A DNA stretch of 64,000 bases. Origin: Aliiruegeria haliotis. Its GTDB lineage: Bacteria; Pseudomonadota; Alphaproteobacteria; Rhodobacterales; Rhodobacteraceae. The stretch is taken from contig NZ_PVTD01000005.1 in the NCBI RefSeq assembly GCF_003003255.1, positions 186,001-250,000 of the forward strand. The letters run 5' to 3'. How positions within the stretch are numbered: position 1 is the stretch's first letter; the number at the start of each line of letters is the position of its first letter. Under the pieces are notes generated by a model. The model did no database searches and was not told the DNA's origin. It saw only the letters and a program-made list of their open reading frames with translations. Both the position numbers and the translations under genes were made by a program. Positions 10,051-27,764 of this stretch are shown piece after piece.

Positions 10051-10091
10051 TGTGTCGGCCCTCCGGTATCCGGCCGCTTGTGCGACCGATG

Positions 10092-10780: not shown

Positions 10781-10813
10781 TGCGTCCGTTCCTTTAGTTC
10801 AATCGTTCTATAG

Positions 10814-11446: not shown

Positions 11447-12231
11447 CACGGCACCAACTCCCCGCGCATCGCGGCGACAGTGCGCCACCAGACCCAAGGT
11501 GCGAACCGGGTCGGCGGGCCAATCTCCAACACCTCCAGATCCAGAAGTGCCAGTACGATTGCATCGGCCACCGCCGCGGAGATCCCAAGGGCGCCGGAAA
11601 GCTCGGAAGCCGACAGGAACGCGCCCGGCCGGATATGCCGGTCGAGGTCGGCGGCCTCGATGTCGGCACGTCGCGCGCCCAGCGCCTCCAGAATGGCCAA
11701 CTTGACCAACTCGCGGGCAGAACCCCGGAAATGCCGGTCATTCGCTCCAGCGGCCTCAAGCGTAGCGGCCATGATCCATCCGGCACGCTCGCAGAGATCC
11801 CAAAAATCGGCGGTCAGGACCCAGCCTTGCCAGGCGCGCGTATCCCGGCCGTCGTCGGCCGCGGTGGTTTCATCGCGCGGCATGATCTGCCCCCGGTTCA
11901 GTGGCAGCAACAACTGCCCAAGCAGAGCTACCGGCTTGCGGTGCCGTGCCATGTGGCAGGCACGGCAGAGCCAAACCACCGACAGCGGGCGCGCATAGTC
12001 GGCGTGGTGCCCTTCGGTTCGGCAGCTCGAGCCGCAATCGCTGCACCGCTCCGCGCGCTCGAGCTCGCCGCGCTGCACCGCCCGGGCAACCTGCAACCGA
12101 GCCGCAATCTTTGCCGCGTTGCCCGGATTGCCCCGATAGGTCTGTTGCGCCTGGGCGTTGCGGAGCCGGTCCAGCTCGGCAGGATCCGGCGCCGGCAGGT
12201 CGGGAAAAAGGCTCGGTTGCAGATCGGACAT
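11443..12231 (-). CDS. HNH-like zinc-motif protein of element A
   Basis: A 262-residue protein. Around residues 63-100 it has a CxxC, then a GHH, then a CxxCH (CSDCGSSCRTEGHHADYA, later LCRACHMARH), the ligand spacing of small phage HNH-type zinc proteins. The C-terminal half is alpha-helical without a clear catalytic residue set. The ATG at 12231 has no competitor. It is followed by the winged-helix gene with a GTGA overlap, so the two are likely co-translated. It may be a nuclease or a DNA-binding cofactor for replication; both remain open. Confidence 0.6.
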   Translation of the reverse strand: MSDLQPSLFPDLPAPDPAELDRLRNAQAQQTYRGNPGNAAKIAARLQVARAVQRGELERAERCSDCGSSCRTEGHHADYARPLSVVWLCRACHMARHRKPVALLGQLLLPLNRGQIMPRDETTAADDGRDTRAWQGWVLTADFWDLCERAGWIMAATLEAAGANDRHFRGSARELVKLAILEALGARRADIEAADLDRHIRPGAFLSASELSGALGISAAVADAIVLALLDLEVLEIGPPTRFAPWVWWRTVAAMRGELVPW

Positions 12232-12373
12232 GGCAAATTGCCCCCGACTGCGAAAGCAGATAGCTTCGCATTGATGGTTCCATCGGTTTTCGGTGGATGG
12301 CAGCGCCGTGCGTATCCTGTCCCGGGTCCGCGCGGCGTTTCCCTTTCAGGCGGTCAGTTGCCGTACCTGGGGA

Positions 12374-12592
12374 TCACTCTGCTGGTGCGCGGGCGACGTC
12401 GCGCGCCGCCTTCAACTGGCCGATGTAGGCCACAAGCTCGGACAGAAGCCAGCGGCTCGAGCCGCCGGATTTCACCGGCGCCGGGAAGCGGCCCAGCGCT
12501 ATGTCGCGGTAGATGGTCGGGCGTTTCTTGCCGGTCATCGTTTCGACTTCGGAAATCGGCAACAGCCGTTCGGGATAGCTTTCCAGGTCCAT
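12374..12592 (-). CDS. AlpA-family DNA-binding regulator (excisionase-like)
   Basis: A 72-residue protein of the AlpA/MerR-like winged-helix family. The pattern LLPISEVETMTGKKRPTIYR, then GRFPAPVKSGGSSRWL, is the family's DNA-binding helix and wing. In P4-like elements AlpA acts as excisionase or activates the integrase. Here it lies downstream of the integrase and the 199-residue gene, separated by a 127-bp gap that could hold its own promoter. Confidence 0.85.
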   Translation of the reverse strand: MDLESYPERLLPISEVETMTGKKRPTIYRDIALGRFPAPVKSGGSSRWLLSELVAYIGQLKAARDVARAPAE

Positions 12593-12719
12593 TCCTGCCC
12601 CCGTTTCTGATCTCGGTTCGGTTTCGATACCAATTTAGATTTCACGGGATGGATTTCCGTTCAATGCCAGCGCCGGCGGACCGGTCTAGTCTGGCCGCCG
12701 GATCGGTCCGGTCAGTTCG

Positions 12720-13319
12720 TCAGTCGGGGTAGTCCTTGAGGCGAAAGCCGGAGCGCTTGCGCAATGTCGTCTCGCTGGGAGCGCGTCGGTTCTTTGGATC
12801 CATGGCCGCCCAAGTCTGGAGATCATCGACAACGAAGCTCAGCATTCCATGCCAGTCGCGCCCCGTGGCTATGGCTTCGTCCCTTTTGTCAGCGGCCCGG
12901 GTTTCCCAATCACGGGTCTTTGCGCTTCGCATTTCCCCGCCAAGCTCGAGATTGGACTTGGAGCGACGCGCACCCTCCAAAACCGGGAGAGCGCCTTTCA
13001 GCGCGGCGGATTGGTCTTCTGCGAAGTCGAGCAACTCAACGTGCTTGTCCAATAGACGCGAAAGGCGTTCCTGCGTCGCGCCCAAGCTTTTCAGGGCTCC
13101 CCATGCTATCGGCCCCACCTCGTCTCGCAGGACTTGCAGTGCCGCGCATTCCTTAAGCGCCCGCAAAAGGCGTTCGGCCAACTCTGCATCCACCAAAATG
13201 CAGTGGCCCGTCCCGGTGGCCTCACGGTCTTTCAGCAACTCTCGCAGTTCGCTGTGAACATTCAAAATCTCTGCGACGGGCAGCGAGCCCAGCTTGTGCC
13301 CTTTCCCCGTTTCCGTCAT
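12720..13319 (-). CDS. Unknown protein downstream of the element A integrase
   Basis: A 199-residue, charged, largely helical protein. Its start (13319) overlaps the integrase stop as ATGA. The C-terminus has TLRKRSGFRLKDYPD, and a basic segment lies near residues 130-165. No known domain. Element B has a gene of similar length (25754-26413) in the identical position, also overlapping its integrase by ATGA and followed by an alpA gene, so the position may be a conserved module even though I see no sequence similarity. Confidence 0.65.
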   Translation of the reverse strand: MTETGKGHKLGSLPVAEILNVHSELRELLKDREATGTGHCILVDAELAERLLRALKECAALQVLRDEVGPIAWGALKSLGATQERLSRLLDKHVELLDFAEDQSAALKGALPVLEGARRSKSNLELGGEMRSAKTRDWETRAADKRDEAIATGRDWHGMLSFVVDDLQTWAAMDPKNRRAPSETTLRKRSGFRLKDYPD

Positions 13320-14524
13320 GCCCCCAACCTCACAACCTGTCCGGCCAGCGGCTCGCCGGCCGCCCGCAACAGGATCCCGGCCCAGCGCTCCAGAGCCTGG
13401 GCGCGCTGCGGCAACAGCTCAGAGCGTTGATAGACGCGGGCCACGGCCGACACTCTCGAGCCGGTGGCGACATGGTTCAGCACGCGGTCCACGACGCTTT
13501 CCGAAACCCCGGCCTCTGCACAATGCGAGGCAAAGGCGGTGCGCAGATCGTGAAGCGTCCAGCCGGTCACGCCGGACAGTTCGTCCAGTCGTTCCTTGAA
13601 GCGCCCGAAACCGGAGATCGGCGTCTTGCCGGTGGTTGTAAATATCAGCCCCTTGGCCCGCTCGGCATCTTCGCGGATCCCCTCGAGCTCCGCGACGGCC
13701 GGTGCGGACAGGTGGACGATATGCGGCTTGCCGTTTTTCGTCCGGCTACCCGGGATCACCCAGCGGTCGCCCTCGAGTTCTTCCCAACGCATCCCGGCCA
13801 CGTCACCGCGGCGCTGGGCCGTCAGCATCAGAAGCCGGATGTATCCGCCCCAGAGCGGCCCCAGCTTTTCCGACGCATCCCAGATGGCGGCCAGTTCCTC
13901 GAGCGTCAGCACCCGGTCGCGGCCGGTTTCGCGGTGCGGTTTCTCCAGCCGCTCGCCGATGTTCACCTCAAGGTAGCCGCGCCGGTGCGCCCAGCCCGCA
14001 AAATGCGACAACCCGGCCAGCAGCCGGTTGGCAGCAACCGGCGTCTTGCGCGCCTTGTCGTCTACCATGGCTTGCAGATCCGTTTTGGTCAGCTCTGCCA
14101 TGGGGCGCGCCATGTGGATCTTGAGCGCCCGCTTCAGCGCGTTGTGGCGTCGGCTTTCATCCTTGAGCTTTGCAAGGTGAAGATCGGCGTAGCGGTGCAG
14201 CACTTCGGAAACCGAAGTCGCCTGATCCACAAGTGCCGCCTGTCGGGCTTCGCGGCGTTCGGCAACGGGATCCCGGCCGGCCGTCACTTCGGCACGCAAT
14301 CGGCCGGCAGTGTCCCGGGCATCGCTGAGCGACATGGCTGGATAGTGGCCCAGGACAAACCGCCGATCCCGGCCGTGCACTTTGAGCCGTATCGACCAGG
14401 TGCGCTCGCCCTTGGCGGTGTATCGGAAATTGAGCCCCCGGCACTTTGTGTCGGTCAGCTCGAGCCGCCCGCTTTCGGGGCGTGGCAGCTTGCGCAAGGC
14501 AACTGCGGTCAGTTCGGTCTTCAT
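13316..14524 (-). CDS. int: Tyrosine recombinase/integrase of element A
   Basis: A 402-residue P4-type integrase. The N-terminal arm-binding domain (LELTDTKCRGLNFRY, then RRFVLGHYPAMSLSDAR) is followed by a core-binding domain at about 100-190 and the catalytic domain. The catalytic set is visible: arginine in TAQRRGDVAGMRW, HDLR (WTLHDLRTAFASH) and the nucleophile tyrosine in VARVYQRSE. I start at MKTELTAVAL; an earlier ATG at 14557 adds 11 residues without family features. It lies 200 bp from the second attachment copy, as expected for the enzyme that inserted this element in tRNA-Phe. Confidence 0.95.
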   Translation of the reverse strand: MKTELTAVALRKLPRPESGRLELTDTKCRGLNFRYTAKGERTWSIRLKVHGRDRRFVLGHYPAMSLSDARDTAGRLRAEVTAGRDPVAERREARQAALVDQATSVSEVLHRYADLHLAKLKDESRRHNALKRALKIHMARPMAELTKTDLQAMVDDKARKTPVAANRLLAGLSHFAGWAHRRGYLEVNIGERLEKPHRETGRDRVLTLEELAAIWDASEKLGPLWGGYIRLLMLTAQRRGDVAGMRWEELEGDRWVIPGSRTKNGKPHIVHLSAPAVAELEGIREDAERAKGLIFTTTGKTPISGFGRFKERLDELSGVTGWTLHDLRTAFASHCAEAGVSESVVDRVLNHVATGSRVSAVARVYQRSELLPQRAQALERWAGILLRAAGEPLAGQVVRLGA

Positions 14525-14562
14525 GGTCTCTTGTCCCGGGTCGAAAAGCGCCCCCACTCATT

Positions 14563-14595
14563 CTGGGGGCGCGCTGGGGGCGCTTTTTGCACGCG
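14563..14595 (+). repeat. Sub-terminal direct repeat, right copy (possible integrase arm site)
   Basis: The right-hand partner of 9344-9376, differing at 2 of 33 positions and in the same orientation. It lies between the integrase start and the second attachment copy, so it could also overlap the integrase promoter and allow autoregulation. Function inferred. Confidence 0.6.
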
Positions 14596-14725
14596 CTTGG
14601 ATGGTTCTGGCAGGGACGATGATAGACGTTCAGAGACGAAATATCCACCACAATACACTGAAATCAATAGATGTTTTTAGACGCCCTCAGACGGGGCGAG
14701 ATTGGCTGGGAAACTCGTGATCGGA

Positions 14726-14774
14726 GATTGAAAATCCTCGTGTCGGTGGTTCGATTCCGCCCCCGGGCACCACT
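14726..14774 (+). repeat. Attachment site copy 2 (junction of elements A and B)
   Basis: An exact 49-bp copy of the tRNA-Phe 3' part (9240-9288). To its left the sequence no longer matches the tRNA, so this is not a second tRNA gene. It is the right end of element A and the left end of element B. Confidence 0.92.
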
Positions 14775-15122
14775 ATTTCAAATATTTAAATTTAAAAACA
14801 ATATGTTGAAACAATAAGGCCCTCGTCAATCCACCTTCTAGTCCCCTCCATCGGCTGCAAAGGATGGACATTGGAGTCAACTGCGGTGTCTTCGAACTGC
14901 ATGCAGCCACAAAGACGGACAAAAAAACGACGCCCAGCCGGAGAACTGGTCCAAATCCAAGCACGCCTTCGGGTGCCGACCAAGGTTTCAACATGATGTT
15001 GCTCAGCCGCAGTTGAGTGGAAACATATGCTCTTGACTAACGGAACTACTCCTTTGGGGTTGCTAGAGATCTCAGGTTGTTGGTTATCTGCTCGTGAGTG
15101 AACGGGCTTCTTCGGGAAGAAA
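14775..15122. other. Left end of element B, non-coding
   Basis: About 350 bp between attachment copy 2 and the methyltransferase gene. The first 50 bp are very A+T-rich (ATTTCAAATATTTAAATTTA). It should hold the promoter of the methyltransferase and possibly integrase binding sites. No credible gene. Confidence 0.5.
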
Positions 15123-16430
15123 ATGACGGCCAACTGTATTGATCTTTTCTCAGGATGTGGCGGTCTCTCGCTAGGCCTAGGAAGTGCTGGGTTCAAAACA
15201 CGATTCGCCGTTGAAGCGCATGATGACGCCTTCGCAACCTATGAGAAAAACCTACTTCACAGGCATCCTGAAAGGCACGATTGGCCGAGTTGGCTAGAAC
15301 GCAGAGCCTGGCGCGCTGAAGAACTGTTTTCAGAGCACAAAACCGAGCTGAAGGCATTGCGCGGTTCGGTTGATCTGATCGCTGGCGGCCCTCCATGTCA
15401 GGGATTTACGACCAACGGCCTCAGACGACCTGATGATCCGCGCAGCCGAATGGTGGATGTTTATCTGAACTTCGTTCGGGAGGTCCGGCCTTGTCTAGTC
15501 TTGCTAGAAAACGTTCAGGGGTTCCGCTCAATGCCACACGGCACTGGAGGCACCTACGAGGACTATGTCCGTGGTCAACTCGTGGAAGCTGGGTACGACG
15601 TCTGGAGTGATGTTCTCAGGGCAATGGACTGGGGAGTTCCCCAACGTCGACCAAGGTTCGTATTGATCGCGGCCAAAGCAGGAGCATTGACAGGAATTGA
15701 CCCATTCCTAAGGCTCCGTGTCGCACGCCAGAAATTCCTTCAGGTCAGGAACCTTGGGCCAGGTCCGACGTCTGCACAGGACGCGATCTCCGACCTTGAG
15801 ACCAACGGAGACGAAATGCCTTTGGATGAAGAGTGGGGGCACCTCGGCTTCAAGAGGCTCCAACGCAAAGCTTCGAGTAGCTCAAGCTTTCAGAAACTGA
15901 TGAGAGTTGAAAGCCATGACCAGCCGACGGACCTACGGCTTCCGAGGCACAGACAACCTGCTATTCAAAGGATGAAGGATATTTTGTCCACATGCGAGCG
16001 GGGTGTTTGTCTGCGACGTGATGACAGAGAACGACTAGGTATCGGCAAACGTTCGACCACCCCTTTAGACCCCAACGCACCAGCGCCCACGATATCCACG
16101 CTACCAGATGACTTCGTGCACTACGGTGCGCCTCGTTCGATGACCGTTCGAGAACATGCCCGGCTCCAGTCCTTTCCGGACTGGTTCTCGTTTCAAGGTC
16201 CGTATACTTCTGGCGGGAAGCAAAGGCGAAACGCATCTCCAAGGTTTACTCAGGTTGGAAACGCAGTCCCGCCGCTTCTCGCGGAAGCTATTGGTGAAGT
16301 AATGCTAGGATTGCTGCCCATTATCCGCGACAATGATGTCTCTCATTTCTCGGAAGGCGTCAATATGCTCTGCAAAGGTCTGCCGCAAAATGGGGAAATC
16401 CATGACGGAGATATCGTCGCTACCCTGTAA
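15123..16430 (+). CDS. Cytosine-5 DNA methyltransferase
   Basis: A 435-residue C5-methyltransferase that transfers a methyl group from SAM to cytosine in DNA. Ordered motifs: I (CIDLFSGCGGLSLG), IV with the catalytic cysteine (GGPPCQGFT, Cys92), VI (LLENVQG), VIII (VPQRRPRF), a target-recognition region at about 210-340, IX (REHARLQSFPDWF) and X (QVGNAVPPLLAEAI). The conserved fold ends near 16320; the last 40 residues run over the 3' end of the convergent receiver gene. No cognate restriction enzyme or Vsr nuclease is visible nearby. The target sequence cannot be predicted from sequence alone. Confidence 0.96.
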   Translation: MTANCIDLFSGCGGLSLGLGSAGFKTRFAVEAHDDAFATYEKNLLHRHPERHDWPSWLERRAWRAEELFSEHKTELKALRGSVDLIAGGPPCQGFTTNGLRRPDDPRSRMVDVYLNFVREVRPCLVLLENVQGFRSMPHGTGGTYEDYVRGQLVEAGYDVWSDVLRAMDWGVPQRRPRFVLIAAKAGALTGIDPFLRLRVARQKFLQVRNLGPGPTSAQDAISDLETNGDEMPLDEEWGHLGFKRLQRKASSSSSFQKLMRVESHDQPTDLRLPRHRQPAIQRMKDILSTCERGVCLRRDDRERLGIGKRSTTPLDPNAPAPTISTLPDDFVHYGAPRSMTVREHARLQSFPDWFSFQGPYTSGGKQRRNASPRFTQVGNAVPPLLAEAIGEVMLGLLPIIRDNDVSHFSEGVNMLCKGLPQNGEIHDGDIVATL

Positions 16431-17255
16431 CGCCCACCCCTCTGGACCTTCGATTTCAATGACATGCCCGAGTGTATTTCTTTTTGCCAATATCTTTTCA
16501 TTGTAACCCTTACTTTCATTTCGAAGCTCTCTTAGACGCTCCACCCTTTCCGCATCAATTCCAAATGCCTCAGGTCGGGCAGTTACGGCTCTTGAGAGCA
16601 GTCGGAAAAATTTGAAGAGCTTTAAGCTATCGACCGCTCTGGTATTCAACCGATCTTCCAGCGATCCTTCTGAGGCCGTTTTGTACTTCTCCAACAGTTT
16701 CTCGGCTGATTTGAAAACTTCATCGTCCAATTTCTTGACTTTGTCTGCACACTCCCGGTCTTGCTTCGTTATAAACAACACTGAAGTCTTCATTATGTCG
16801 TCGCATTCCGCCACAACCTTAATCGCAAGGCCTCTCATCCCAGACAACCTATCGAGTGACCGAGCCGTTTGTTCAATTAACGCGCCCGTTCGCGAAATGA
16901 ACCTGTCGCGATGACTGCAATAGACGCCCTCTACCTCATTGGCCGCAATTTTCGAACGAAGCGACGATTCGCCAATTGTCCCGGAATAGAAGAGGATAGT
17001 TGTCGACGGAAACAGATTGCGCACTACCGGTGCAAGGTCATCTCCTCTCACGTCCTTCAGTTTGTAGTCCAGTAGTATTATGTCAAAGCGATGGTACAGA
17101 CTGTGTTGCCGAGCAAGTTCTTCTATTCCGTCATCGTTCTCAATATTTACGATTCTCGGCAGAAACCCAGCCTCGCGTATCCGTCGTTCTAAAGCGATTC
17201 GTTCTTCCGTACTAAACGAGTCTTCAATCCAAAGAATGCCTATATCGAGATTCAC
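16305..17255 (-). CDS. Response-regulator receiver protein with unknown C-terminal domain
   Basis: A 316-residue protein. Residues 1-110 form a receiver domain: acidic pair Glu11/Asp12 (ILWIEDSF), phospho-acceptor Asp63 (IILLDYKLKD) and a switch Ser/Thr (ILFYSGT). The conserved lysine that normally follows is not evident (VYCSHRDRF). The remaining 200 residues are helical, charged, and contain no DNA-binding domain, unlike a transcription factor. The start overlaps the GHKL kinase stop by ATGA, so the two are a co-translated pair. Its 3' end overlaps the convergent methyltransferase gene by 126 bp. Confidence 0.88.
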   Translation of the reverse strand: MNLDIGILWIEDSFSTEERIALERRIREAGFLPRIVNIENDDGIEELARQHSLYHRFDIILLDYKLKDVRGDDLAPVVRNLFPSTTILFYSGTIGESSLRSKIAANEVEGVYCSHRDRFISRTGALIEQTARSLDRLSGMRGLAIKVVAECDDIMKTSVLFITKQDRECADKVKKLDDEVFKSAEKLLEKYKTASEGSLEDRLNTRAVDSLKLFKFFRLLSRAVTARPEAFGIDAERVERLRELRNESKGYNEKILAKRNTLGHVIEIEGPEGWALQGSDDISVMDFPILRQTFAEHIDAFREMRDIIVADNGQQS

Positions 17256-19579
17256 GCAACATCTCCTGGTATTGAGATTTCAAAAATTGCTCGGCTTCCA
17301 TCACCGACCAACACCATTGTCCCCCCCATCGTCTCGATGATCTGCCTTGCGCTGTACAGCCCTAGCCCTGTTCCTTTCGTTGATCCTGTGTATCCGCGCT
17401 CAAAGATCTTCGCCGGATCCACTCGTCGTGTGTCGATGCCAAGTCCGTCGTCGGAAACAAGAATAGCGATGGACTTTGCCGACTTCTTCGACACTTTGAA
17501 CTCAATCTGGCTCGCCTTGGCCTTGCGAGCATTGTCTAGAAGGTTGTCGATCAGAACAGCGACATCGACGGGCGAAAACTCTCTGTGCAAAGAGACGTTT
17601 CCAGCTTCCAACTTCACGTTGGGTAGATCGGGAACGCCTGCAACGCGAACCTCAAAATACTCCCCGATAAACTGAACAATGTCGCCGTCAACTCGGTCCG
17701 TTTCAAGATCGACACGGATGTTGGGTGCAAAGGATAGCACGCTTCGTAACCTGTCACCTGATAGGTGCGCACCGGCGAGTGAAACCGAAACTCTTCTGGC
17801 TGCTTGCCGAATCGTGGCGAAAAGGTCCTCAGCCTCTTCCAAATCTTCAAGTTCATCCGCCTCTTGGGCCGAAGAAAGCAGCGAGTTCACTTCATGAACC
17901 GCATTTGATACTGCTGACGACAGATGACCAAGGTGAATCGTTGCTTGATGCATCAGTAGTTGAACCCTTTCAATATCAATGTCCTTGCTACTTCCTAGGA
18001 AAGCCGCCTGCTGTTCTAAGAGCGCAATCCTCGCATCGGCTCTTTGTCGTTCTTCCAGAGCTCTACGCGCTTGCTCGCGAGCTTCTTCGCGTGACTGTTT
18101 GAGTTGTTCGATTCGCCTACGCGCGCTTTCGACTTGATCAAGAAGCGCTGGGTCTCCTCGACGCTCAGCCAAGTCGGACATGGCACGAAGGGCCTTATCC
18201 GTAATGTGATCTGGGTCCTCAGATACTTTGACAATGTCTTTGTCAAAATAGTCGATCACAACATCTGTGGATCGCGCTAGATTTCCTACAACGGTTAGAA
18301 CTCTGGAGCGAGCACTGTCGGTTTCAAGTCCGTCTGCTGTGTCCCGGTCCTGATCCTGCTTGTCTTGCCAGTTTACGCCAACAACATATCTTTCAAGGCG
18401 GAACACCATATTTGTGCGTATTGCCTCGTAAAGTGCTCGGCTTCTTGCATCTTCGACAAGACCGGCGTCACGACTTGAAACCTCGCGAAACAATTTCGGA
18501 CGTGCGAGAACATCCACTCGCCCCAATACGTCTCGGGTTCCAAAGTATCGAGATTGGCCCTGCTGCTTTCTTCGATTTAGACCGAAAGTATCGTCCGTTT
18601 CATCTCCGATTGGAGATATCCGAAATCCATTCAAAAACAGAAAGATGCTTCCAAACTCTACAGGTCGAACACCCATACGCCTAGTAAAAGTGGATTTTGC
18701 CGACCGGTTGAGAAAGTATATTTGACCAGTAACTTCGCAATCAATCAACTCTTCGTAGGGAGAGGGTTCGCGAATGGCATAGATCTTCCTCCCCCGGTCA
18801 TATAGGGTGCTGGAAATCTCTCCATGTTCAATCTTTACTTCGATCCGGCTGGTTTTTTGTTCAAGGAGGTCCGAGATCTCATTTCCAACAGGGCCATCAA
18901 CACCATCTATCCATTTATCTGATCCATCATAAAGCCACGTTGAAACTTCGACAGTATCAGTTGTGCCGAATGGATCAATTAGTTTAGCTAGATCTCGGCG
19001 GAGACGTCGAACACGCTCCTCATTCCATCTATGTCGGGTTCCCTTAATCACCAATACCGTACCACTACCCTCCGGGAGTGTAGCGTTGCTTGTTTCAGGG
19101 AAGCTATTTGCTTGTGACACCAAAACGTCAATTTCTTGAAACTCTTCCGAACTGCTTTCTTCGAACAAAGTCCAGTCTATAGAGAGCTTTGCTATTTCAT
19201 CCGAGCTCTCACTCCTGCTGAAGAGTTCAAGACCTACTCCAAGTGTATCGCAAGCGAACCTTCCGATTCCTTTGCTACCTGCAAACTGCCCTCCAGGTCG
19301 GATTTTGTCTCGATAGTTATCAGCTTGAGCCAGAGCTTTTTCAGAATAAGCGACAAAAAGCCATTTCTCTCTAATATCAGATTGAGACATGCCGTGGCCA
19401 TCATCTACAATTGTAATGGTTTCGGCCTCTGTATCAAACTCAATGCCGACTGATGTGGCTCCAGCGTCGAACGAGTTTTTGACAAGCTCAAAGATGGCGA
19501 CAAACTCGTTGGTCACCAAATCTCGACCGATGATGTCCTTTAGGTGCGAGCTGATTCTGAACTTGTCGTGTCCTTGCAT
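17252..19579 (-). CDS. Double-GHKL ATPase: MORC/MutL-like N-terminus plus histidine-kinase C-terminus
   Basis: A 775-residue protein with two ATP-binding GHKL domains. The first (about 15-200) has ELVKNSFDAGAT, DDGHGM and GSKGIGRF, as in Hsp90/MutL/MORC, followed by an S5-like region to about 400. A coiled coil (about 480-525) and a possible dimerisation helix with His552 or His562 (IHLGHLSSAV, AVHEVNSLL) precede a second GHKL domain with NLLDNARKA, SDDGLGID and TKGTGLGLYSARQI, as in sensor kinases. No membrane span. It is paired with the receiver gene and lies beside a C5-methyltransferase. MORC-type ATPases have been described in restriction-modification loci (Iyer, Abhiman and Aravind). 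Confidence 0.9.
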   Translation of the reverse strand: MQGHDKFRISSHLKDIIGRDLVTNEFVAIFELVKNSFDAGATSVGIEFDTEAETITIVDDGHGMSQSDIREKWLFVAYSEKALAQADNYRDKIRPGGQFAGSKGIGRFACDTLGVGLELFSRSESSDEIAKLSIDWTLFEESSSEEFQEIDVLVSQANSFPETSNATLPEGSGTVLVIKGTRHRWNEERVRRLRRDLAKLIDPFGTTDTVEVSTWLYDGSDKWIDGVDGPVGNEISDLLEQKTSRIEVKIEHGEISSTLYDRGRKIYAIREPSPYEELIDCEVTGQIYFLNRSAKSTFTRRMGVRPVEFGSIFLFLNGFRISPIGDETDDTFGLNRRKQQGQSRYFGTRDVLGRVDVLARPKLFREVSSRDAGLVEDARSRALYEAIRTNMVFRLERYVVGVNWQDKQDQDRDTADGLETDSARSRVLTVVGNLARSTDVVIDYFDKDIVKVSEDPDHITDKALRAMSDLAERRGDPALLDQVESARRRIEQLKQSREEAREQARRALEERQRADARIALLEQQAAFLGSSKDIDIERVQLLMHQATIHLGHLSSAVSNAVHEVNSLLSSAQEADELEDLEEAEDLFATIRQAARRVSVSLAGAHLSGDRLRSVLSFAPNIRVDLETDRVDGDIVQFIGEYFEVRVAGVPDLPNVKLEAGNVSLHREFSPVDVAVLIDNLLDNARKAKASQIEFKVSKKSAKSIAILVSDDGLGIDTRRVDPAKIFERGYTGSTKGTGLGLYSARQIIETMGGTMVLVGDGSRAIFEISIPGDVA

Positions 19580-19729
19580 GAAGACTTGCTACTCCAGTTG
19601 CCTCACAGAGCGAAGCCTGAACACTACATCACTGAACATGGGGCATCGACAGTTGCTGAATACGCTCAATGGCATCGTCAGTGAGCCAAGCTCGACTTGC
19701 ATGCGTTCTTGAAGGAAGCCACAGCCAGA

Positions 19730-21286
19730 TCAATGCCTAGGCGTTGGCAAGGACACAGTGTTTGAGTCGAAATCGACGAAACGAGCGAACTGCTTTCGAA
19801 GAATACGGCTAAGCTTTGCGAGTAAGTTCGGATCTCGAATATCGGGGCTAGGCTCAACATCAGCAGGCCCGCACATGTCGGCACAGCCGCCATTGAAGCC
19901 AGCGATTTCGTCGGCCAGCTCGTCGGCGGCTTCGGCCAGCTCGTCGGCCTGCCGGATTACTGACCCGCTGCTTTGTAGATCGCTAGAACTGCGTTCATGC
20001 GTTTCACTAGCTCGTTGTTCGTTTTCTGTAGCTGTGTTTGCTGCTCGATGATCGTTTTCAATAGTTCTCTGATTGTCTCGTCTTTGCTCATGTCGCTCTG
20101 CCTCTCTGCGTTTGCTGTGGTTGTGTTGTTTGAGTGCCGCCAGCTCGTCGGTCAGCTCGTCGCTGGCCACGACTCTACGGGCCTTGTCGAGCTGAGATGC
20201 ACCCCGACGGGGCCGGTTGTGCTCTCGCAACTCTGCGGTGATTGCGTCGTATCGCTCGGCGCTGTTGATGCGTTGCAGCTCGGTTGGCTCATTGAGCAAT
20301 TCGATTGCTGCGTCTCCGAAGTCGGCTTCGGATCGGGCGTCGATCAGCTCGGCGGGTTCATGAGCTGGTCTAGTTTCGATTCCGTCCGCATCGTGATTTC
20401 GATCAGCTCCCGCAACAGGGGTAGGAGCGGATCGGCCCCGGCCTCGGTCGGCCTGACGTAAGCTAGAATCTCCGTCGTGTCTCGCTTCGTCGCTTCGATC
20501 TTGATCGCGATCTCGTTGCCGCTCGGCTTCCCGGTATTCGTTGATTGCCGCGACGGCTTCGGCTCGCCGCTCAAGGAATTCTGCGACGTGCTTCGGGGCG
20601 GCTGGTGCTGGTCTGTCATGTTGTAGTGCCTCCTGTTGGCGTTTTCTCCATCGCTTTAGTGCGTGGATTGTGGATTTCGGGGCGGTGGGAATTCTCAGTT
20701 CCTCGGGGATCGGCTTTGCCGACACCTCGGCGTTGATGCCGTGCCGGTCGAAAAACTGGTTCATGCGGTCGGCAAACTGGTCTCGCATTTCGCGACCTTT
20801 GCCCTCCGTCATGATCGAGTTGAATTCGCGATCTTTCTTCTTGTCGAAGCCAGCAGCTCCGACATGACGAAGCGAGATCAGCGCCGAAACGTGGTCATTT
20901 TCGCCGTTGCCAAAAATGCCGCCGTCCTCGTGCCTCGCGAACTCGACGCCAAAGCCGCGATCAACGAGGGGTTGCAGCATTTCGCGAGCAAACTCGTTGC
21001 GAAGTTCGCCGGGAACTTCGTGCGGAATCGAAAAGTCGAACGTGCGAGCTGTCTGCGCATCTTTGCGACGCTCGACGCCTTCGGCTTCGGTCCACATGGC
21101 CACCGGATCGTGCATCCGCTCGGGCGCATCGGCGGGCAACATGACTTCAGAATGTTGCAGCTCGTCGGCCTTGTGCGAGAAGTCAAATTCGGGGTCCTTA
21201 GAGCATCGCTGATAGGCTGAGCGGCGCAGAGCGCTGCCGCCCTGCGATCTCTGAACCACTCCGAAGCTGACCCGAAAATAAGCCAT
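19730..21286 (-). CDS. MobA/MobL-type (MOBQ) relaxase
   Basis: A 518-residue protein whose first 210 residues match the MobA/MobL relaxases that nick oriT and pilot DNA in conjugative mobilization. The nicking tyrosine (ALRRSAYQRC, about Tyr25) and the block VERRKDAQTARTFDF are present. The metal-binding motif, normally NPHAHxxxxxR, reads NDHVSALISLR, so the second histidine is missing. From about residue 235 on the protein is a long, low-complexity, charged region rich in AELADE-type repeats. The oriT candidate lies 33 bp upstream. No partner T4SS is present. Confidence 0.85.
   Translation of the reverse strand: MAYFRVSFGVVQRSQGGSALRRSAYQRCSKDPEFDFSHKADELQHSEVMLPADAPERMHDPVAMWTEAEGVERRKDAQTARTFDFSIPHEVPGELRNEFAREMLQPLVDRGFGVEFARHEDGGIFGNGENDHVSALISLRHVGAAGFDKKKDREFNSIMTEGKGREMRDQFADRMNQFFDRHGINAEVSAKPIPEELRIPTAPKSTIHALKRWRKRQQEALQHDRPAPAAPKHVAEFLERRAEAVAAINEYREAERQRDRDQDRSDEARHDGDSSLRQADRGRGRSAPTPVAGADRNHDADGIETRPAHEPAELIDARSEADFGDAAIELLNEPTELQRINSAERYDAITAELREHNRPRRGASQLDKARRVVASDELTDELAALKQHNHSKRREAERHEQRRDNQRTIENDHRAANTATENEQRASETHERSSSDLQSSGSVIRQADELAEAADELADEIAGFNGGCADMCGPADVEPSPDIRDPNLLAKLSRILRKQFARFVDFDSNTVSLPTPRH
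20344..20619 (-). CDS. Possible gene embedded in the relaxase gene in another frame
   Basis: A 91-residue open frame on the same strand as the relaxase but in a different frame, under the relaxase's low-complexity linker. It begins MTDQHQPPRSTSQNS and its C-terminal half (LLPLLRELIEITMRTESKLD) has the hydrophobic pattern of an amphipathic helix. In RSF1010-type mobilization regions mobB is embedded in mobA in just this way. I see no strong ribosome site, so this is a possibility only. Confidence 0.3.
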   Translation of the reverse strand: MTDQHQPPRSTSQNSLSGEPKPSRQSTNTGKPSGNEIAIKIEATKRDTTEILAYVRPTEAGADPLLPLLRELIEITMRTESKLDQLMNPPS

Positions 21287-21318
21287 GTGTTTTCGCTCTT
21301 AGCTCCGCAAGACGAAGC

Positions 21319-21354
21319 ACGTTGGCCTTGGCCAACGTATAAGCGAGCATCCCC
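21319..21354 (+). other. Candidate origin of transfer (oriT)
   Basis: An 8-bp perfect inverted repeat ACGTTGGC/GCCAACGT with a 4-nt loop (21319-21338) is followed by ATAAGCGAGCATCCCC. MOBQ oriTs consist of an inverted repeat followed by a nick core of the TAA-x-x-GCGC-CC kind, and this site lies just upstream of the MOBQ-like relaxase gene. Assigned by resemblance and position. Confidence 0.6.
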
Positions 21355-21460
21355 TTTCTTTTGAACTTCCCTTGCAATTTTAAATTGTGTGCGCATTTGA
21401 GAAATCAAGACTTTCAATTTCGGTTTATGTTTTTGAAGTCAGTTGGGGAGATTTTCATAC

Positions 21461-21751
21461 GTGCAAAATAGAAAGACGGAGTTAGAAAAGGCAGAGGAAC
21501 GGTTTCTGAAGGCAAAACTGAAGCTCGCGGAAGTGAAAAGGCGTGCTGGAGACGCCGAAAGAAAGAGGCGTGACACTGCACTGTTCACAATCGGAGCTTG
21601 TTTCGCTGCCTTACTGCGTGATCGACCAGATTTTGCCCGAAAATTTTGGAGCGAATATCTGTGTCACCTCGCGCCAGAGCTGATGAACGACACACGACGC
21701 AGGGCGTTGCGCGAAGTCTTTGATCTGGAGTCCAAGCATGACGAAACCTGA
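21461..21751 (+). CDS. MobC-like accessory mobilization protein (tentative)
   Basis: A 96-residue protein transcribed away from the relaxase. The N-terminal 40 residues form a charged coiled coil (LEKAEERFLKAKLKLAEVKR), followed by ERKRRDTALFTIGACFAALL. A basic RKxRDxxxxxxG pattern after a coiled coil is typical of small accessory proteins beside MOBQ relaxases. I start at GTG 21461, which has GGGGAG 10 nt upstream, instead of an upstream TTG. Family assignment is an inference from shape and position. Confidence 0.6.
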   Translation: MQNRKTELEKAEERFLKAKLKLAEVKRRAGDAERKRRDTALFTIGACFAALLRDRPDFARKFWSEYLCHLAPELMNDTRRRALREVFDLESKHDET

Positions 21752-21767
21752 GTGATTTCGGTAGCTT

Positions 21768-22004
21768 ATGTCGCGCCTCTTGTTCGCGGAGTCGGGGCTG
21801 CAACAGCTCGAAGATGGGGCGGCGCTGGCGCGCATGACTGATGTGCATCGCTCATACAGAGCGTTCAAGGATGCGGAGCTGGAAAAGGAAGAAGCGGAAG
21901 AAAAAATGAAGGCCGCAGGCGACGAGCTGGTGAAAGCGATTGACGGATATGGCGAGCTGAAAGATTTGCCGCATCCTATGAAAGATTATCGAGCGGGACT
22001 TTAA
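21768..22004 (+). CDS. Small unknown protein, coiled-coil
   Basis: A 78-residue charged protein (starting MSRLLFAESGLQQLEDGAAL), with a glutamate/lysine-rich helix (DAELEKEEAEEKMKAAGDEL). It lies 16 bp after the MobC-like gene on the same strand. No recognisable domain. Confidence 0.6.
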   Translation: MSRLLFAESGLQQLEDGAALARMTDVHRSYRAFKDAELEKEEAEEKMKAAGDELVKAIDGYGELKDLPHPMKDYRAGL

Positions 22005-22032
22005 AATAGGGCGGAATTTACCGAGGACAGAA

Positions 22033-22197
22033 ATGGATAACACTCTAGAAATAAAGAGGGCCATGGAGACATATTTTCGCGAGCAATATGAACTTCAAGA
22101 GCGAACTATTCGGCACTTGGAAAGCATCGAAAAGCAAAACAAGGTTTTGATTTCAATTTTCGGTGCTGCCGCGAAACATTTGGATTCCGAGCAATGA
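22033..22197 (+). CDS. Small unknown protein (54 residues)
   Basis: A 54-residue open frame: MDNTLEIKRAMETYFREQYE, then a helical segment ending in AAAKHLDSEQ. It has an AGGAC element 6 nt before the ATG, and its stop overlaps the next start (ATGA). That overlap and its place in a same-strand series make it credible despite its size. Function unknown. Confidence 0.6.
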   Translation: MDNTLEIKRAMETYFREQYELQERTIRHLESIEKQNKVLISIFGAAAKHLDSEQ

Positions 22198-22391
22198 TCC
22201 GGGGTCTATTCATCTTGGGGTCAATGTTGACACAAATGCACCTGCTGCGAGCGAAGAAGCTCAAACGCCGCCGCCGCTTGAGAGCGAATAGGCGGACAGC
22301 CCGCGCGGCTGCTGGTTTGCTCGCGGCACATCGAGCGATGCACATCGCGAAGAAGCAAGCTGCTCGCTACGCCGCTGAACTGGGGATGTGA
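22194..22391 (+). CDS. Small basic unknown protein
   Basis: A 65-residue strongly basic protein (LLRAKKLKRRRRLRANRRTA) with a hydrophobic N-terminal segment (MIRGLFILGSMLTQMHLL), consistent with a short membrane-associated or nucleic-acid-binding peptide. It overlaps the previous gene by ATGA. No family recognised. Confidence 0.5.
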   Translation: MIRGLFILGSMLTQMHLLRAKKLKRRRRLRANRRTARAAAGLLAAHRAMHIAKKQAARYAAELGM

Positions 22392-22392
22392 G

Positions 22393-22734
22393 ATGCTGAC
22401 AGATGGACAGCGATACACGATGAAAATGACGATGTTGCTCCACGAAGATTCAGAGCGATTGCGAAAGGTTTGGGCGATCAGGAATGAACGTCTGCGGGCT
22501 GGATCGTTTCCGCTTTCTGTCGAAGAAGCTGCTGAGATCGTCACTGGCCTCGGTTACAAAGAAGAGTCTTCGCGCTGGTATCAAATGGTCTGGAAGCTAT
22601 CGCGGGTGCCTGTCGGCGAGCTACGTCGTTCTCGCAGCCAGTTCCAGCACGACGAAGGCGGAGATCCCGGCGACGATGGTGCGCCGGGGTTGTCGATGGA
22701 TATCGACTCGATCCTGAAAGACGCAGGTTTGTAG
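22393..22734 (+). CDS. Unknown protein closing the rightward small-gene operon
   Basis: A 113-residue protein starting MLTDGQRYTMKMTMLLHEDS, with a central segment (SVEEAAEIVTGLGYKEESSR) that could be a helix-turn-helix, and an acidic C-terminus. It starts 1 nt after the preceding stop. The segment NERLRAGSFPLSVEEAAEIV hints at a DNA-binding role, not demonstrated. Confidence 0.6.
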   Translation: MLTDGQRYTMKMTMLLHEDSERLRKVWAIRNERLRAGSFPLSVEEAAEIVTGLGYKEESSRWYQMVWKLSRVPVGELRRSRSQFQHDEGGDPGDDGAPGLSMDIDSILKDAGL

Positions 22735-22921
22735 GGGCTGTCTGCCCCAGGCCCTGTGGGCCTCCCCCGAAGGTTTTTTCGCTCGGAAATGAGGCGATAA
22801 GGCTTCTCCTGGCCGAAGCTTGCGGAGACCAAGAGAACGACGGGGTTGCTATTTGCGAGCTGCCGCACACTTACAACATGTCCGCGTGAGCTGGGGAGCA
22901 AATCGCGGAACTCGGAAATGC

Positions 22922-22963
22922 CCCTCGGTCTGTTCACCTCAATGTCAGCCGAGGGTTTTTTTT
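22922..22963 (+). terminator. Rho-independent terminator
   Basis: CCCTCGG (22922-22928) pairs with CCGAGGG (22949-22955), followed directly by eight T residues. It would end rightward transcripts from the mobC-like operon and lies at the 3' end of the convergent leftward gene at 22962. Confidence 0.75.
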
Positions 22964-23165
22964 ATAGGAAATCGTTAAACGCGCCGCAGCTCTCGCAGGT
23001 CTTCCAGGGGATCCGCTCGCCGTTTATGAAGTCGAGCACTTCTGATCGCGGCGCGGTTTCCTCGTTCCAGCCTGGTTGTGTCCACGCTGGAATTTCACGC
23101 TCGATACTCCAACGTGTCTCGCGTTCGCAGCGGTCGTTTTCTGTGTCTACAGATTCTCTGTCCAT
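22962..23165 (-). CDS. Small unknown protein with a CxxC motif
   Basis: A 67-residue protein (MDRESVDTENDRCERETRWS and on) ending with WKTCESCGAFNDFL, so it has one CxxC near the C-terminus and could bind zinc as a dimer. Its leader has an AAACAAGGAAA ribosome site. It is the last gene of the leftward parA operon. Function unknown. Confidence 0.6.
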   Translation of the reverse strand: MDRESVDTENDRCERETRWSIEREIPAWTQPGWNEETAPRSEVLDFINGERIPWKTCESCGAFNDFL

Positions 23166-23179
23166 AACGATTTCCTTGT

Positions 23180-23811
23180 TTAATTGTTTATTTGTTGAGT
23201 GATGTGATCGAATAGGGGGCGGGCACTGTCGTTCACTGACTGAAAGCGGGTTTCGGTCAATGCGGTGCCTTCTTCGCCACAGCGCCGCCAGCTGGGGCGG
23301 TAGAGTAGATGGCTGGGCAAGGTCGCATAGTCCGTTGTCTCAAGCCATTCTCTCGCGTTCTTAGCTTCGGCTTCGGTGGATACCTGGCTAAGTGCAAATG
23401 CGATGCGAGCGAGCGGGATTCGGGCGTCCACGAGCGCATGAGCGAGGTTTACGGAAGGCTTGAGATCGTCAAACGAATTGCTCGTTGGGATGATCGCTAG
23501 ATTAGACCGCTCGGCGGCTTCGATGCTCTCGCTGTTAGCGTGGGGGCGTCCGTCGATGATTAACACGTCATAACCACGACCGAGGTTTAGCGCCTCTTTG
23601 ACTGACTTAGCTTCCACGGCCTCTACAGCCTGGACCAGCTCTGCCGCTGCCCGAAGCTCGGCCCATTCGGCGCTTGTGGCTTGCTGTGTGTCCAGATCGG
23701 CCAACCGTGGGCGCTAGCCGATCTTCGACAGCTCCACGGCTAGGGTGCGAGCGAGTGAGCTTTTGCCGACTCCGCCTTTTTTTGAGACAGGAAGCTGACA
23801 ACGTAGGTCAT
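23180..23811 (-). pseudogene. ParA-family partition ATPase, broken by frameshift and stop
   Basis: Reading from the ATG at 23811 (overlapping the upstream stop as ATGA) gives MTYVVSFLSQK, then the frame fails at a run of seven A. Shifting by one restores the deviant Walker A, KGGVGKSSLARTLAVELSKI, which runs into a TAG before the frame continues as RLADLDTQQA. The intact rest (from 23704) has the Walker B-like VLIIDGRPHANSES and the usual ParA C-terminus. So the ATP-binding loop is separated from the body by one frameshift and one nonsense codon. As written the gene cannot make a full ParA. Confidence 0.8.
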
Positions 23812-24008
23812 ATACCCCAGCCTCGTTTTGTGTCTGCGATGAGTCCCGCCACGCGGTCTAGTTCGTCTCGAATGAGCCCGAGCAGCTTTGAATCAGTTGT
23901 GCGACTGCGCAGAGCGCGCAGGCTTCCAGCGCATTCTTCTAAGGCTGTCGCATCGCCGGTCGCATCGTCGATCTGATTAATGATCTGATTTAGCTTACTC
24001 TCGCTCAT
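23808..24008 (-). CDS. Small unknown protein of the parA operon
   Basis: A 66-residue helical protein (MSESKLNQIINQIDDATGDA and on). Its start overlaps the upstream gene and its stop overlaps the parA start, both as ATGA, so it is embedded in a translationally coupled operon. Unknown function; a partner of ParA is possible. Confidence 0.65.
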   Translation of the reverse strand: MSESKLNQIINQIDDATGDATALEECAGSLRALRSRTTDSKLLGLIRDELDRVAGLIADTKRGWGI

Positions 24009-24343: not shown

Positions 24344-24503
24344 AGCTTGTTTCCTGTTAACTTGTTTAGGTGTTACCGAAAGCGGTGAGGGTGGCAGCCC
24401 AGGTCACAGGGAACCGGAGACCTAGACTATGTACGGTTGTGACGAGGCTGCCTAGGATACCCACAGGAGCATCCCAAGCTGCAATAAACCAAAGGTGTTT
24501 GCC

Positions 24504-25753: not shown

Positions 25754-26413
25754 TTAAATTCGCCAAATAGCTTCGCATGTACTTGATCGCCACAAGTGAT
25801 CGATGCCCAAGGCGGTCTTGCCCCGTGAAACACTGGTCTCGAGGTTTGGTTGATGGGGCTTGTCTTTGAAGGGGTTTTCCCCAAGCACTCCGAAGTCAAA
25901 ACCATCTACCTCCGCAAGAATATCTCGATTGGAAACGTTAACCCCAACGCTGGGGGAATAGCCATCCCCTCGGAGAAGCTTCTCTTTCTCGTGAATGTAG
26001 ACCCACAACGCGAATGCTCTGTGGCTATCAATTCCAGACGTTGCGTCAACACGTCGTGGACGCCCACGAACAGTAGGAAAATTATACGGTGCTCTTTGGT
26101 AGGCTTCCAAAGTTTGATACAGCAATCCGTAGAACAGTATTTTGAGAGCTCCATTGGACATGCCGTGACCCACACCGAGGATTTTTCGATAATTGACATC
26201 GTCGTCGAACAATCGACCAAAGAGATCCAAGTCTATATTTGCGTGCTCTAGAAAACCGTCAGCCTCTAATTCCAGTAGCAACAACCCGCGAATTGCGATG
26301 TCGATCACGTGGGGTTCAGCACCAATGCCAAAGCTTACATCTTCAAGCTTTTTTTGTAGTCTAAGCCTTTGGTCTTCTGCAATTGGCTCCATCAGCGTTT
26401 CAATGTCACTCAA
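25754..26413 (-). CDS. Unknown protein downstream of the element B integrase, possibly frameshifted at its end
   Basis: A 219-residue protein starting in an ATGA overlap with the integrase stop. The first 190 residues look like a normal folded protein (LLLLELEADGFLEHANIDLD and so on). The tail after about residue 195 (SRGKTALGIDHLWRSS) looks unnatural, while another frame (stop at 25693) reads RPVFHGARPPWASI then VHAKLFGEFKS, more protein-like. A single-base shift near 25830 would join them. No known domain; RGRPRRVDATSGID could be a DNA contact. Confidence 0.6.
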   Translation of the reverse strand: MSDIETLMEPIAEDQRLRLQKKLEDVSFGIGAEPHVIDIAIRGLLLLELEADGFLEHANIDLDLFGRLFDDDVNYRKILGVGHGMSNGALKILFYGLLYQTLEAYQRAPYNFPTVRGRPRRVDATSGIDSHRAFALWVYIHEKEKLLRGDGYSPSVGVNVSNRDILAEVDGFDFGVLGENPFKDKPHQPNLETSVSRGKTALGIDHLWRSSTCEAIWRI

Positions 26414-27603
26414 TTCGCCTCTAGCAAGCGAACTACTTGGCCACTTTTTCCGAGCAGGTGCTCTGACCAGCGTTCCATAAGCTGTCGGCGCTGTTCCAGG
26501 AAGTCGGTCCTACGATATGCGCGCTCGACGGACGATCCCGAAACATGTTGTAAGATCGTCTCACATACTTCGTTCGGCGCATCGGTAGCCTCCGCTAACC
26601 ACGTTCTTAGGCTGGATCTGAATCCGTGTGGCCGCTCGTCATGGCCTTGTCTTTTCATCAACCCAGCAAGCGTGCCGTCACTAATGACGCCCTTTCTTGT
26701 CGATGGGAACAAGAACCCCTTCTTTTGAAACGGCTTTGAAAGGTCGATGACTTTTAAAGCCTCCAGCGACAGAGGAACCCGGAACTCACTTGTCTTACCT
26801 TTCAGGCCCTTCATGGAGTCACTGGGGATTGTCCAGACGTCACCATCAATTTGGTCCAGGTTAATAAACCTAAGCGGATGCGAGCGAACACCAGTCAGGA
26901 TAAGTAGGCGCATCGCCAAGTTCGTAACCGACGGTTCGGTCAAGCTCTGATAGAATGACGGAACCTTGGTCCAGTGCAGAGCCGGAATGTTCTTCGGGGT
27001 ATGACGTGTCTTTCCTAGGAGCAACTTAGCCTTTTCCGTGACCTGCAAGTCGACATCGAGGTCATGTGCAGCGGCGTGTCGCAGAACGATTGATATCCTG
27101 TTAAGCGCTTTTCGAGCGGTATCTGCTTTGCTGTGCCAGATTGGCGCGAGGGCATCTTTCACGTCGCGTTGATCCAGTTGTGCGACCGGAATTTTTCCCA
27201 ACTTGGGAAAAACGTGGTTCTCCAAAGGGCTTAGCCATCGTCCGGCCTTACCGTCGCCCTTTAGTTCGGGCTTCTTTGCTTCAAATGCCTCAAGCGCGAT
27301 TGCCTCAAAGGTGTTGTCGGCCCTTTTGGCTTCCCGTGCCTCCCTTTCGCGTTGCTTTATTGGGTCTATTCCCCTTTTTGCTATCGATCTCCAGTGATCG
27401 GCGAGGCCGCGTGCATTCTTCAGGGACACGTCGTTGAAGCTGCCGAGGCCCATCTCTCTACGCTTGCCGTGAATCGTAACTCGCAGCACCCATTGAGCCC
27501 CACCATCCTTGCGCTTATGCAGCCACAGCCCAGCGCCATCACAGTGCTTCCCTACTGGTGCGCTTCGAACAAATGACGCGGAAAGAAGTTCTTTGCCAGC
27601 CAT
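26410..27603 (-). CDS. int: Tyrosine recombinase/integrase of element B
   Basis: A 397-residue P4-type integrase. It has an N-terminal arm domain (GLWLHKRKDGGAQWVLR, REMGLGSFNDVSLKNAR), a core-binding domain and a catalytic domain with ILTGVRSHPLRFINL (arginine), RPHGFRSSLRTWL (HxxR region) and the tyrosine in SSVERAYRRTDF. I start at ATG 27603, 6 nt after AAAGGGGG; the ATG at 27609 is too close to that site. It is only distantly similar to the element A integrase, but uses the same tRNA site, and lies 140 bp from attachment copy 3. Confidence 0.94.
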   Translation of the reverse strand: MAGKELLSASFVRSAPVGKHCDGAGLWLHKRKDGGAQWVLRVTIHGKRREMGLGSFNDVSLKNARGLADHWRSIAKRGIDPIKQREREAREAKRADNTFEAIALEAFEAKKPELKGDGKAGRWLSPLENHVFPKLGKIPVAQLDQRDVKDALAPIWHSKADTARKALNRISIVLRHAAAHDLDVDLQVTEKAKLLLGKTRHTPKNIPALHWTKVPSFYQSLTEPSVTNLAMRLLILTGVRSHPLRFINLDQIDGDVWTIPSDSMKGLKGKTSEFRVPLSLEALKVIDLSKPFQKKGFLFPSTRKGVISDGTLAGLMKRQGHDERPHGFRSSLRTWLAEATDAPNEVCETILQHVSGSSVERAYRRTDFLEQRRQLMERWSEHLLGKSGQVVRLLEAN

Positions 27604-27740
27604 GTCCATCCCCCTTTCTATCCACCGCAATATGTAGGATACGACCGGACAGTTCAATACAGTTTAAGACAATTAAGGCACGGAAATATTTCGAATCTAG
27701 GTTTCTCCACGACACCGAAGAACACCTAAATATAGGAATG

Positions 27741-27764
27741 CGATTCCGCCCCCGGGCACCACTT
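27741..27764 (+). repeat. Attachment site copy 3 (attR, displaced tRNA-Phe end)
   Basis: A 24-bp match to the T-arm and acceptor end of tRNA-Phe (9266-9289), ending in the CCA and three bases. It shares 23 bp with copy 2. It marks the right boundary of element B and of the whole insertion. Confidence 0.9.

Follow-up and report, generated by a model that had tools for sequence, protein, structure and literature searches.

Results

The window analysed here is a 64,000-nucleotide stretch of Aliiruegeria haliotis DNA (NCBI RefSeq assembly GCF_003003255.1, contig NZ_PVTD01000005.1, positions 186,001 to 250,000 of the forward strand), and coordinates without a locus name refer to it. It carries a trio of neighbouring genes for a C5-cytosine DNA methyltransferase, a response regulator and a soluble sensor kinase. 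An original prediction, made from the sequence alone, had proposed the trio as a candidate defence or epigenetic switch system. In this study, we found that the response regulator ends in a HEPN-like domain, which appears to be a candidate ribonuclease (RNase) output, newly recognised here. These features suggest that the trio may be a defence system that does not cut DNA but relays an alarm, through transfer of a phosphate, to a protein that cuts RNA. The genes and their domains are as follows (aa, amino acids; bp, base pairs).

15123..16430, plus strand: C5-cytosine DNA methyltransferase, 435 aa (PF00145 DNA_methylase, 2.1e-48; TIGR00675 dcm, 3.2e-37)
16305..17255, minus strand: response regulator with receiver and HEPN-like output domain, 316 aa, GTG start (Pfam, alignment, model)
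17252..19579, minus strand: soluble sensor kinase with two GHKL ATPase domains, 775 aa (Pfam; hydropathy)
16305..16430, no strand: tail-to-tail overlap of the methylase and receiver genes, 126 bp, which recurs in relatives
16911..17255, minus strand: receiver domain, residues 1-115 (model, Foldseek, alignment)
16329..16847, minus strand: HEPN-like helical domain, residues 137-309 (AlphaFold; Pfam HEPN matches of relatives; profile-profile comparison)
16464..16481, minus strand: predicted RNase motif R259-N-T-L-G-H264 (Rx4H; RNxLxH conservation)
19127..19504, minus strand: N-terminal HATPase_c_3 (paraMORC/BbrUII-like) domain of the kinase, residues 26-151 (PF13589, 2.3e-25)
17948..17950, minus strand: candidate phosphoacceptor H544 of the kinase (invariant in 17/17 aligned kinases)
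17276..17563, minus strand: C-terminal histidine-kinase HATPase_c domain, residues 673-768 (PF02518, 5.5e-22)

All three open reading frames (ORFs) were intact and complete where the original prediction had placed a C5-methyltransferase beside a kinase/receiver unit. The kinase gene shares 4 bp with the receiver gene. In both of their proteins the Kyte-Doolittle mean was at most 1.1 over any 19-residue segment, indicating no membrane span, and the kinase is thus soluble as predicted. Promoter and terminator scans gave a signal near the shuffle level. In PADLOC-DB 2.0.0, a comparison suggested with the original prediction, no single defence system was matched by all three genes; the methylase matched the MTase_II and DruM models, the kinase matched REase_II (2.1e-12, residues 14-143), and the receiver protein was without any match. 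As had also been predicted, no restriction enzyme was seen, either in the trio or in the further ORFs scanned on the mobile island around it (8 with Pfam and 6 with PADLOC, some small ORFs lying outside these scans).

The response regulator was aligned with those of its relatives in 19 rows. This alignment omits L122 (a near-copy of L123) and L127 (a protein within that of L051), which do carry the motif described below, and L138 (229 aa), from which the motif is absent. The receiver domain matched the Pfam family Response_reg at 4.4e-4, below the family cut-off, and the receiver fold was confirmed by an AlphaFold model and Foldseek. D12 and D63 were invariant in 19 of 19 receivers, and residue 11 was acidic (E or D) in every one. 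Conservation thus agrees with the prediction of Asp63 as the likely phosphoacceptor. The protein had also been described as having no DNA-binding domain. This description holds: no DNA-binding domain was found with Pfam or seen in the model, and we rejected the receiver as a DNA-binding regulator. The HEPN-like C-terminal half, a candidate output domain, had been overlooked.

In the C-terminal domain, 8 of 141 ungapped columns were invariant (R141, G142, D152, R259, N260, L262, H264 and G278). Four of these positions make up an RNxLxH motif (R259, N260, L262, H264), which was invariant in all 19 receivers at identities to the window protein down to 17%. The AlphaFold model, based on 19 sequences, had a predicted local distance difference test score (pLDDT) of 89.9 and a predicted template modelling score (pTM) of 0.84. 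It contains helices at residues 137-165, 167-187, 210-226, 235-247 and 251-264, then a beta hairpin and a last helix, with a lower-confidence insert at about residues 180-210. The motif lies at the end of the penultimate helix, which ends at H264, and is followed by the long last helix at 284-309. In the available part of PMC3710099, the HEPN hallmark is an Rx4-6H motif in which N, D or H follows the R; it lies at the end of helix 3 or the start of the loop to helix 4, and a variable insert is said to be frequent between helices 2 and 3. The window protein has Rx4-6H with N after the R and, in the predicted model, the same motif placement and insert.

When the 19 C-terminal domains were scanned against 24,736 Pfam models, 34 families matched at E <=10. 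Among the 25 shown, HEPN_RiboL-PSP ranked first (2 of 19 members, 2.6e-4 and 2.9e-4) and HEPN_Apea second (1 of 19, 0.0063), both below cut-off. The best PADLOC model for these domains was Cas13-ApeA (1 of 19, 0.00099). A profile-profile comparison with HEPN_RiboL-PSP/Apea scored 27.5, whereas 100 column shuffles reached no more than 13.8 and six unrelated profiles no more than 15.2. With a 21-member set, the confident block was MRG...D152, and the loose alignment set RN.LaH on RN.iaH; in an earlier 12-member HEPN_RiboL-PSP comparison, RN.LaH was itself the confident block. The larger set came from 24 of 34 loci tried (L189, L192 and L208 yielded none, and Apea member L207 was included) and leaves out 10 weaker or broken loci; the smaller came from 24 loci. 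A comparison with Ymh (PF09509) was uninformative, resting on one sequence (1 of 4 loci).

Several results weigh against this assignment. The window's own C-terminal domain matched no HEPN model in the Pfam scan, and none of the 19 domains reached any HEPN cut-off. Two unnamed PADLOC candidates, PDC-M01B (0.0038) and PDC-S26 (0.0045), nearly equalled Cas13-ApeA. The hhalign probability for the HEPN comparison was only 20%, although the score was above the controls, and a comparison with the PF05168 HEPN set (21 of 25 loci yielding sequence) gave no match. All 50 Foldseek rows shown were receiver-containing or kinase structures, in a search made with the whole protein. Finally, the HEPN profile gave no match in the receiver of L138, a clear relative of the trio, or in the receivers paired with more distant paraMORC kinases. 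Weighing these points with the motif, the model and the profile comparison, we consider it very probable that the C-terminal domain belongs to the HEPN superfamily.

The HEPN profile was also run on 18 more distant receiver-side proteins, two of which were downstream neighbours, and found none. Four of the 18 (L063, G338, G278 and G111) contain a loose R[NDH]..H pattern, which was not taken as evidence.

The kinase contains both HATPase_c_3 and HATPase_c in one protein, in agreement with the predicted double ATPase. The GHKL motif residues checked in the two domains were invariant in 9 of 9 kinases. No DHp family was matched by the kinase in Pfam at E 1. The original prediction had named His552 and His562 as phosphodonors. 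However, among H544, H549, H552 and H562, only H544 was conserved in the 17 aligned kinases, and the autophosphorylation site is probably H544, judging from this conservation. The alignment excludes the kinase gene of L141, which is interrupted by an inserted ORF (L141:7099-8583), probably a mobile element.

Relatives were gathered by kinase or receiver and never by methylase. The order was searched in 292 genomes, that of the window among them, and four (window, G101, G032 and G010) gave a receiver match at E <=1.1e-10, the next-best match being at E 2.3e-6. The kinase and a C5-methylase were adjacent in all four. Within the genus (9 genomes), a full-length receiver relative occurred only in the window's genome, with weak partial matches in three others. 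A profile search of 398 phylum genomes added one clear full-length relative, G577, whose contig carries the methylase, the receiver and a kinase fragment. Scans of viral contigs gave 8 loci with the receiver query and 18 with the kinase query, on partly shared contigs, and a genome-contig scan gave one weak locus with a match limited to the kinase C-terminal domain. No relatives were found in plasmids with the window or L142 receiver query, in phages with the L137 receiver query, in plasmids or viral contigs with the G338 receiver query, or in E. coli with the DNA of the L124 receiver gene.

Together these make 20 distinct loci, namely the 19 rows of the receiver alignment and L138. The methylase was adjacent in 19 of the 20; the exception is L142, whose contig stops at the receiver gene. 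The kinase gene adjoined the receiver in 18; it is a fragment in G577, and the L121 contig begins at the receiver. Flanks of 1.5 kilobases held a C5-methylase at 4 of 5 distinct trio loci; at G010 the methylase is placed beyond the kinase. Flanks of the same length at the control loci, 40 with other receivers and 15 with other kinases, held none. The adjacency in 19 of 20 loci and the empty control flanks demonstrate that the association of the trio exceeds chance, and the three-gene co-occurrence, a check named with the original prediction, is conserved. Weaker kinase matches (L144-L147) were kept outside the set; L146 has a methylase neighbour, and none was found by profile in the fetched stretch of L144, L145 or L147. 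Among six distant kinases of the order examined with wide flanks (L054-L059), a C5-methylase was nearby in three and in none of the other three.

The order of the genes was determined in 15 loci. The methylase and receiver genes were convergent in eight, divergent in two, where the methylase stands at the far side and points outwards, and co-directional in five. The convergent genes overlap by 14-126 bp in the window, L051, L052, L123, L125, L134, L136 and L143. This tail-to-tail overlap would allow a possible antisense coupling of both transcripts.

A regulatory two-component system that controls expression of the neighbouring methylase or restriction-modification (R-M) genes is one alternative, and the accessible part of PMC8011034 speculates on this for HEF_HK/Response_reg_2 systems, which have the same general architecture and C5-methylase context. 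However, in the window receiver there is no DNA-binding domain and the C-terminal domain is HEPN-like, the ORFs scanned held no restriction enzyme, and the orientation and position of the methylase vary among loci. We regard this explanation as improbable.

The window, L123, L124, L125 and L126 form one clade for the kinase (FastTree support 1.000) and for the receiver (0.968). The methylases of L124 and L126 split from the others of that clade (1.000) and are nearest to L135 (0.914). Because the methylase split off while kinase and receiver stay in the window's clade, the trees indicate that these two loci have had their C5-methylase exchanged for a different one, with a change of position. 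Even after the swap they retain a C5-methylase, which argues that the kinase/receiver pair needs one.

A Vsr endonuclease gene adjoins the replaced methylase in L126 (L126:793-1203). Such a neighbour would fit a DNA repair or mismatch-type function tied to C5 methylation, with a MutL-like ATPase, and MORC relatives are compared with MutL in the accessible part of PMC2292703. However, a test for Vsr found it at no trio locus but this one, the partner that is conserved is a receiver-HEPN protein, and the distribution is sparse, at 4 of 292 genomes of the order. A repair function thus seems very improbable indeed.

The DNA around the trio has the following features, among them a tRNA-Phe gene.

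9212-9286: tRNA-Phe gene
14726..14774, plus strand: left island boundary, a 49-bp exact copy of the tRNA-Phe 3' part
19730..21286, minus strand: MobA/MobL relaxase on the same island as the trio (PF03389, 1.2e-22)
26410..27657, minus strand: tyrosine integrase of the trio-bearing island
27737..27763, plus strand: right boundary-like shorter copy of the tRNA-Phe 3' end

Because of the tRNA-Phe 3' copies at 14726-14774 and 27737-27763, the sequence is read as two tandem integrative islands at tRNA-Phe, with the trio in the second (roughly 14775-27736). The cassette of the original prediction thus lies on an integrase-bearing, mobile tRNA-Phe island. The G+C content of this island is 52% (50% in the trio itself) against 62% in the rest of the window. 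The first island spans about 9289-14725 and has its own integrase at 13316-14557. Ten ORFs beside the module in six relatives were scanned against PHROGs. Five of the relatives (L124, L126, L051, L128 and L138) had genes for phage structure, tail genes included, or for packaging or lysis, and the single neighbouring ORF scanned in L143 was an integrase. By gene content, these neighbours mark the module as prophage cargo in several relatives, and it is island cargo in the window.

These surroundings also bear on an explanation by selfish maintenance, or addiction. Here the methylase would be the antidote, undermethylated DNA would activate the kinase, the HEPN RNase would kill cells that lose the element, and protection from phages would come as a side effect. 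In its favour, the trio is carried by an integrative island that has a relaxase and an integrase, phage genes lie beside relatives, and the methylase and effector genes overlap tail to tail. However, the kinase step has no clear advantage over a plain toxin-antitoxin pair. The parts are the same as those of a defence system, and the sequence does not separate the two. Addiction appears unlikely to us, though less so than the regulatory explanation.

Some relatives carry further genes. A gene for a HAD_PNKP 3'-phosphatase directly follows the receiver-HEPN gene in G010 (2.2e-33; L053:11338-11778) and L137 (1.3e-36; 9368-9820). Such an end-healing partner fits, because HEPN enzymes leave 2',3'-cyclic phosphate ends according to the accessible part of PMC3710099. 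Similar-looking short ORFs, read by eye, follow the receiver in L128, L135 and L139.

In two loci (L060:9120-10450 and L138:8556-9894), a short receiver is followed by a protein of about 220 aa with H-G and A/S-C motifs. The two proteins showed no significant similarity to each other. We presume from their motifs a resemblance to caspase-like proteases, and the searches made gave no supporting match. More distant paraMORC kinases with short receivers were seen in L061:5535-10502, L065:6986-12088 and L062:5607-10776, and their neighbours include genes for adenine-type or type I methylases and for HNH or metallo-beta-lactamase proteins. In such distant systems the effector may be modular.

Discussion

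In this study, we examined a methylase, kinase and receiver trio whose receiver carries a candidate RNase domain. We lean, by a narrow measure, towards a methylation-linked RNase system on a mobile island that is switched by a phosphorelay. The C5-methyltransferase, an intact family member with predicted activity, would mark resident DNA. The N-terminal paraMORC-type GHKL ATPase would probe DNA, or a DNA-protein complex, for a missing mark or another infection-linked change. The histidine-kinase half would autophosphorylate, probably at H544, and conservation suggests D63 of the receiver as the residue that would take over the phosphate. Whether or not the receiver is phosphorylated would then switch the attached HEPN domain, in which R259, N260 and H264 are predicted to cut RNA. 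The outcome may be growth arrest or death, which would stop a phage or punish loss of the element. In some relatives, the PNKP-type 3'-phosphatase that follows may heal or process the RNA ends.

A broader principle can be proposed tentatively, with rather less confidence than the mechanism itself. This would be restriction by signalling, in which loss of a self mark is read by a MORC-like ATPase and passed through a His-Asp phosphorelay to a response-regulator RNase toxin, with methylases that can be plugged in and RNA-healing enzymes that can be added. The response of the cell to foreign DNA would then be cleavage of RNA. If true, it would join two-component signalling to self recognition of the R-M type, and would bear on what bacterial MORC-like ATPases sense. 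The role of the receiver and the involvement of the methylase were left open in the accessible part of PMC8011034. Should the receiver prove to be a HEPN RNase, there would be a testable effector with three defined residues.

Several known systems share parts with the trio. Residues 15-205 of the window kinase match the BbrUII/HgiDII restriction enzymes (NF050001 restrict_BbrUII, 1e-24). However, the match scores 87 bits against a cut-off of 550 and covers only the first ~190 of 659 profile positions, and the rest of the window kinase is a histidine-kinase core. The anticodon nucleases PrrC and RloC are HEPN-type RNases that guard or back up a modification system under the control of a P-loop ATPase, whereas the window system has a GHKL kinase and a receiver. 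Detocs is a defensive two-component system in which signalling fires an effector. Unlike the window trio, Detocs is not known to include a methylase or a paraMORC domain, and its effector is of another kind.

The original prediction had held that joining a MORC-type ATPase to a two-component module was not an established system. This was not sustained, since the general combination and its R-M association are described in PMC8011034 (Bellieny-Rabelo et al. 2021), though the window proteins lie outside its two Pfam families. In its accessible part, kinases with HATPase_c_3, HEF_HK and HATPase_c stand beside Response_reg_2 proteins with a linkage of 91.6% in 644 regions, C5-methylases are common nearby, kinship with paraMORCs is proposed, and the Response_reg_2 proteins are without another known domain. 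The window kinase is likewise soluble, with HATPase_c_3, a presumed DHp-like region and HATPase_c, an adjacent receiver and a C5-methylase neighbour, and it has the N-terminal HATPase_c_3 and C-terminal HATPase_c seen in HEF_HK kinases. However, PF19191 (HEF_HK, cut-off 24.1 bits) had no match in the window's genome at E 10, with 12 candidates scored, nor in the Pfam scan at E 1, and the window receiver reached 13.6 bits (E 0.154) on PF19192 (Response_reg_2) against a cut-off of 27 bits. Being below both cut-offs, the window proteins are, by profile, a separate lineage of the published architecture. A distant kinship of window-type receivers with Response_reg_2 is likely, because 5 of 13 relatives match that family at E <=10 (best 1.4e-4). 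The bona fide HEF_HK system G338 (L090:6369-12004) has the same gene trio: a methylase, a 987-aa kinase scoring 97.9 bits on PF19191 and a 551-aa Response_reg_2 protein. This receiver differs from that of the window in that the HEPN profile finds no match in it.

As far as the accessible part of PMC12137116 goes, VcSduA joins a GHKL ATPase of the paraMORC3 type to a Shedu nuclease, and phage defence needs both parts. The window kinase has a similar N-terminal GHKL ATPase, which in VcSduA is needed for effector-based defence. In contrast to the window system, VcSduA is one protein with a PD-(D/E)xK nuclease and without receiver or HEPN, and a methylase is unmentioned in that part of the paper. 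HATPase and REC are among the legend abbreviations of predicted systems in the accessible part of PMC13092281, and one of these could be of the same kind as the window system. A receiver-HEPN protein with a paraMORC kinase is not described in the accessible parts of PMC3710099, PMC7159879, PMC8195603, PMC13092281 and PMC12839542, which represent mostly open-access literature. The accessible part of PMC3710099 does describe fusions of Ymh-type HEPN domains with paraMORC ATPases that lie in R-M neighbourhoods, and it proposes an analogy to PrrC/RloC. The window system resembles these fusions in its paraMORC ATPase, its HEPN-like domain and its R-M-type context. It differs from them in that the HEPN-like domain belongs to the receiver, a protein of its own, and the kinase contains a histidine-kinase ATPase besides the paraMORC one, so that a phosphorelay would link the two proteins.

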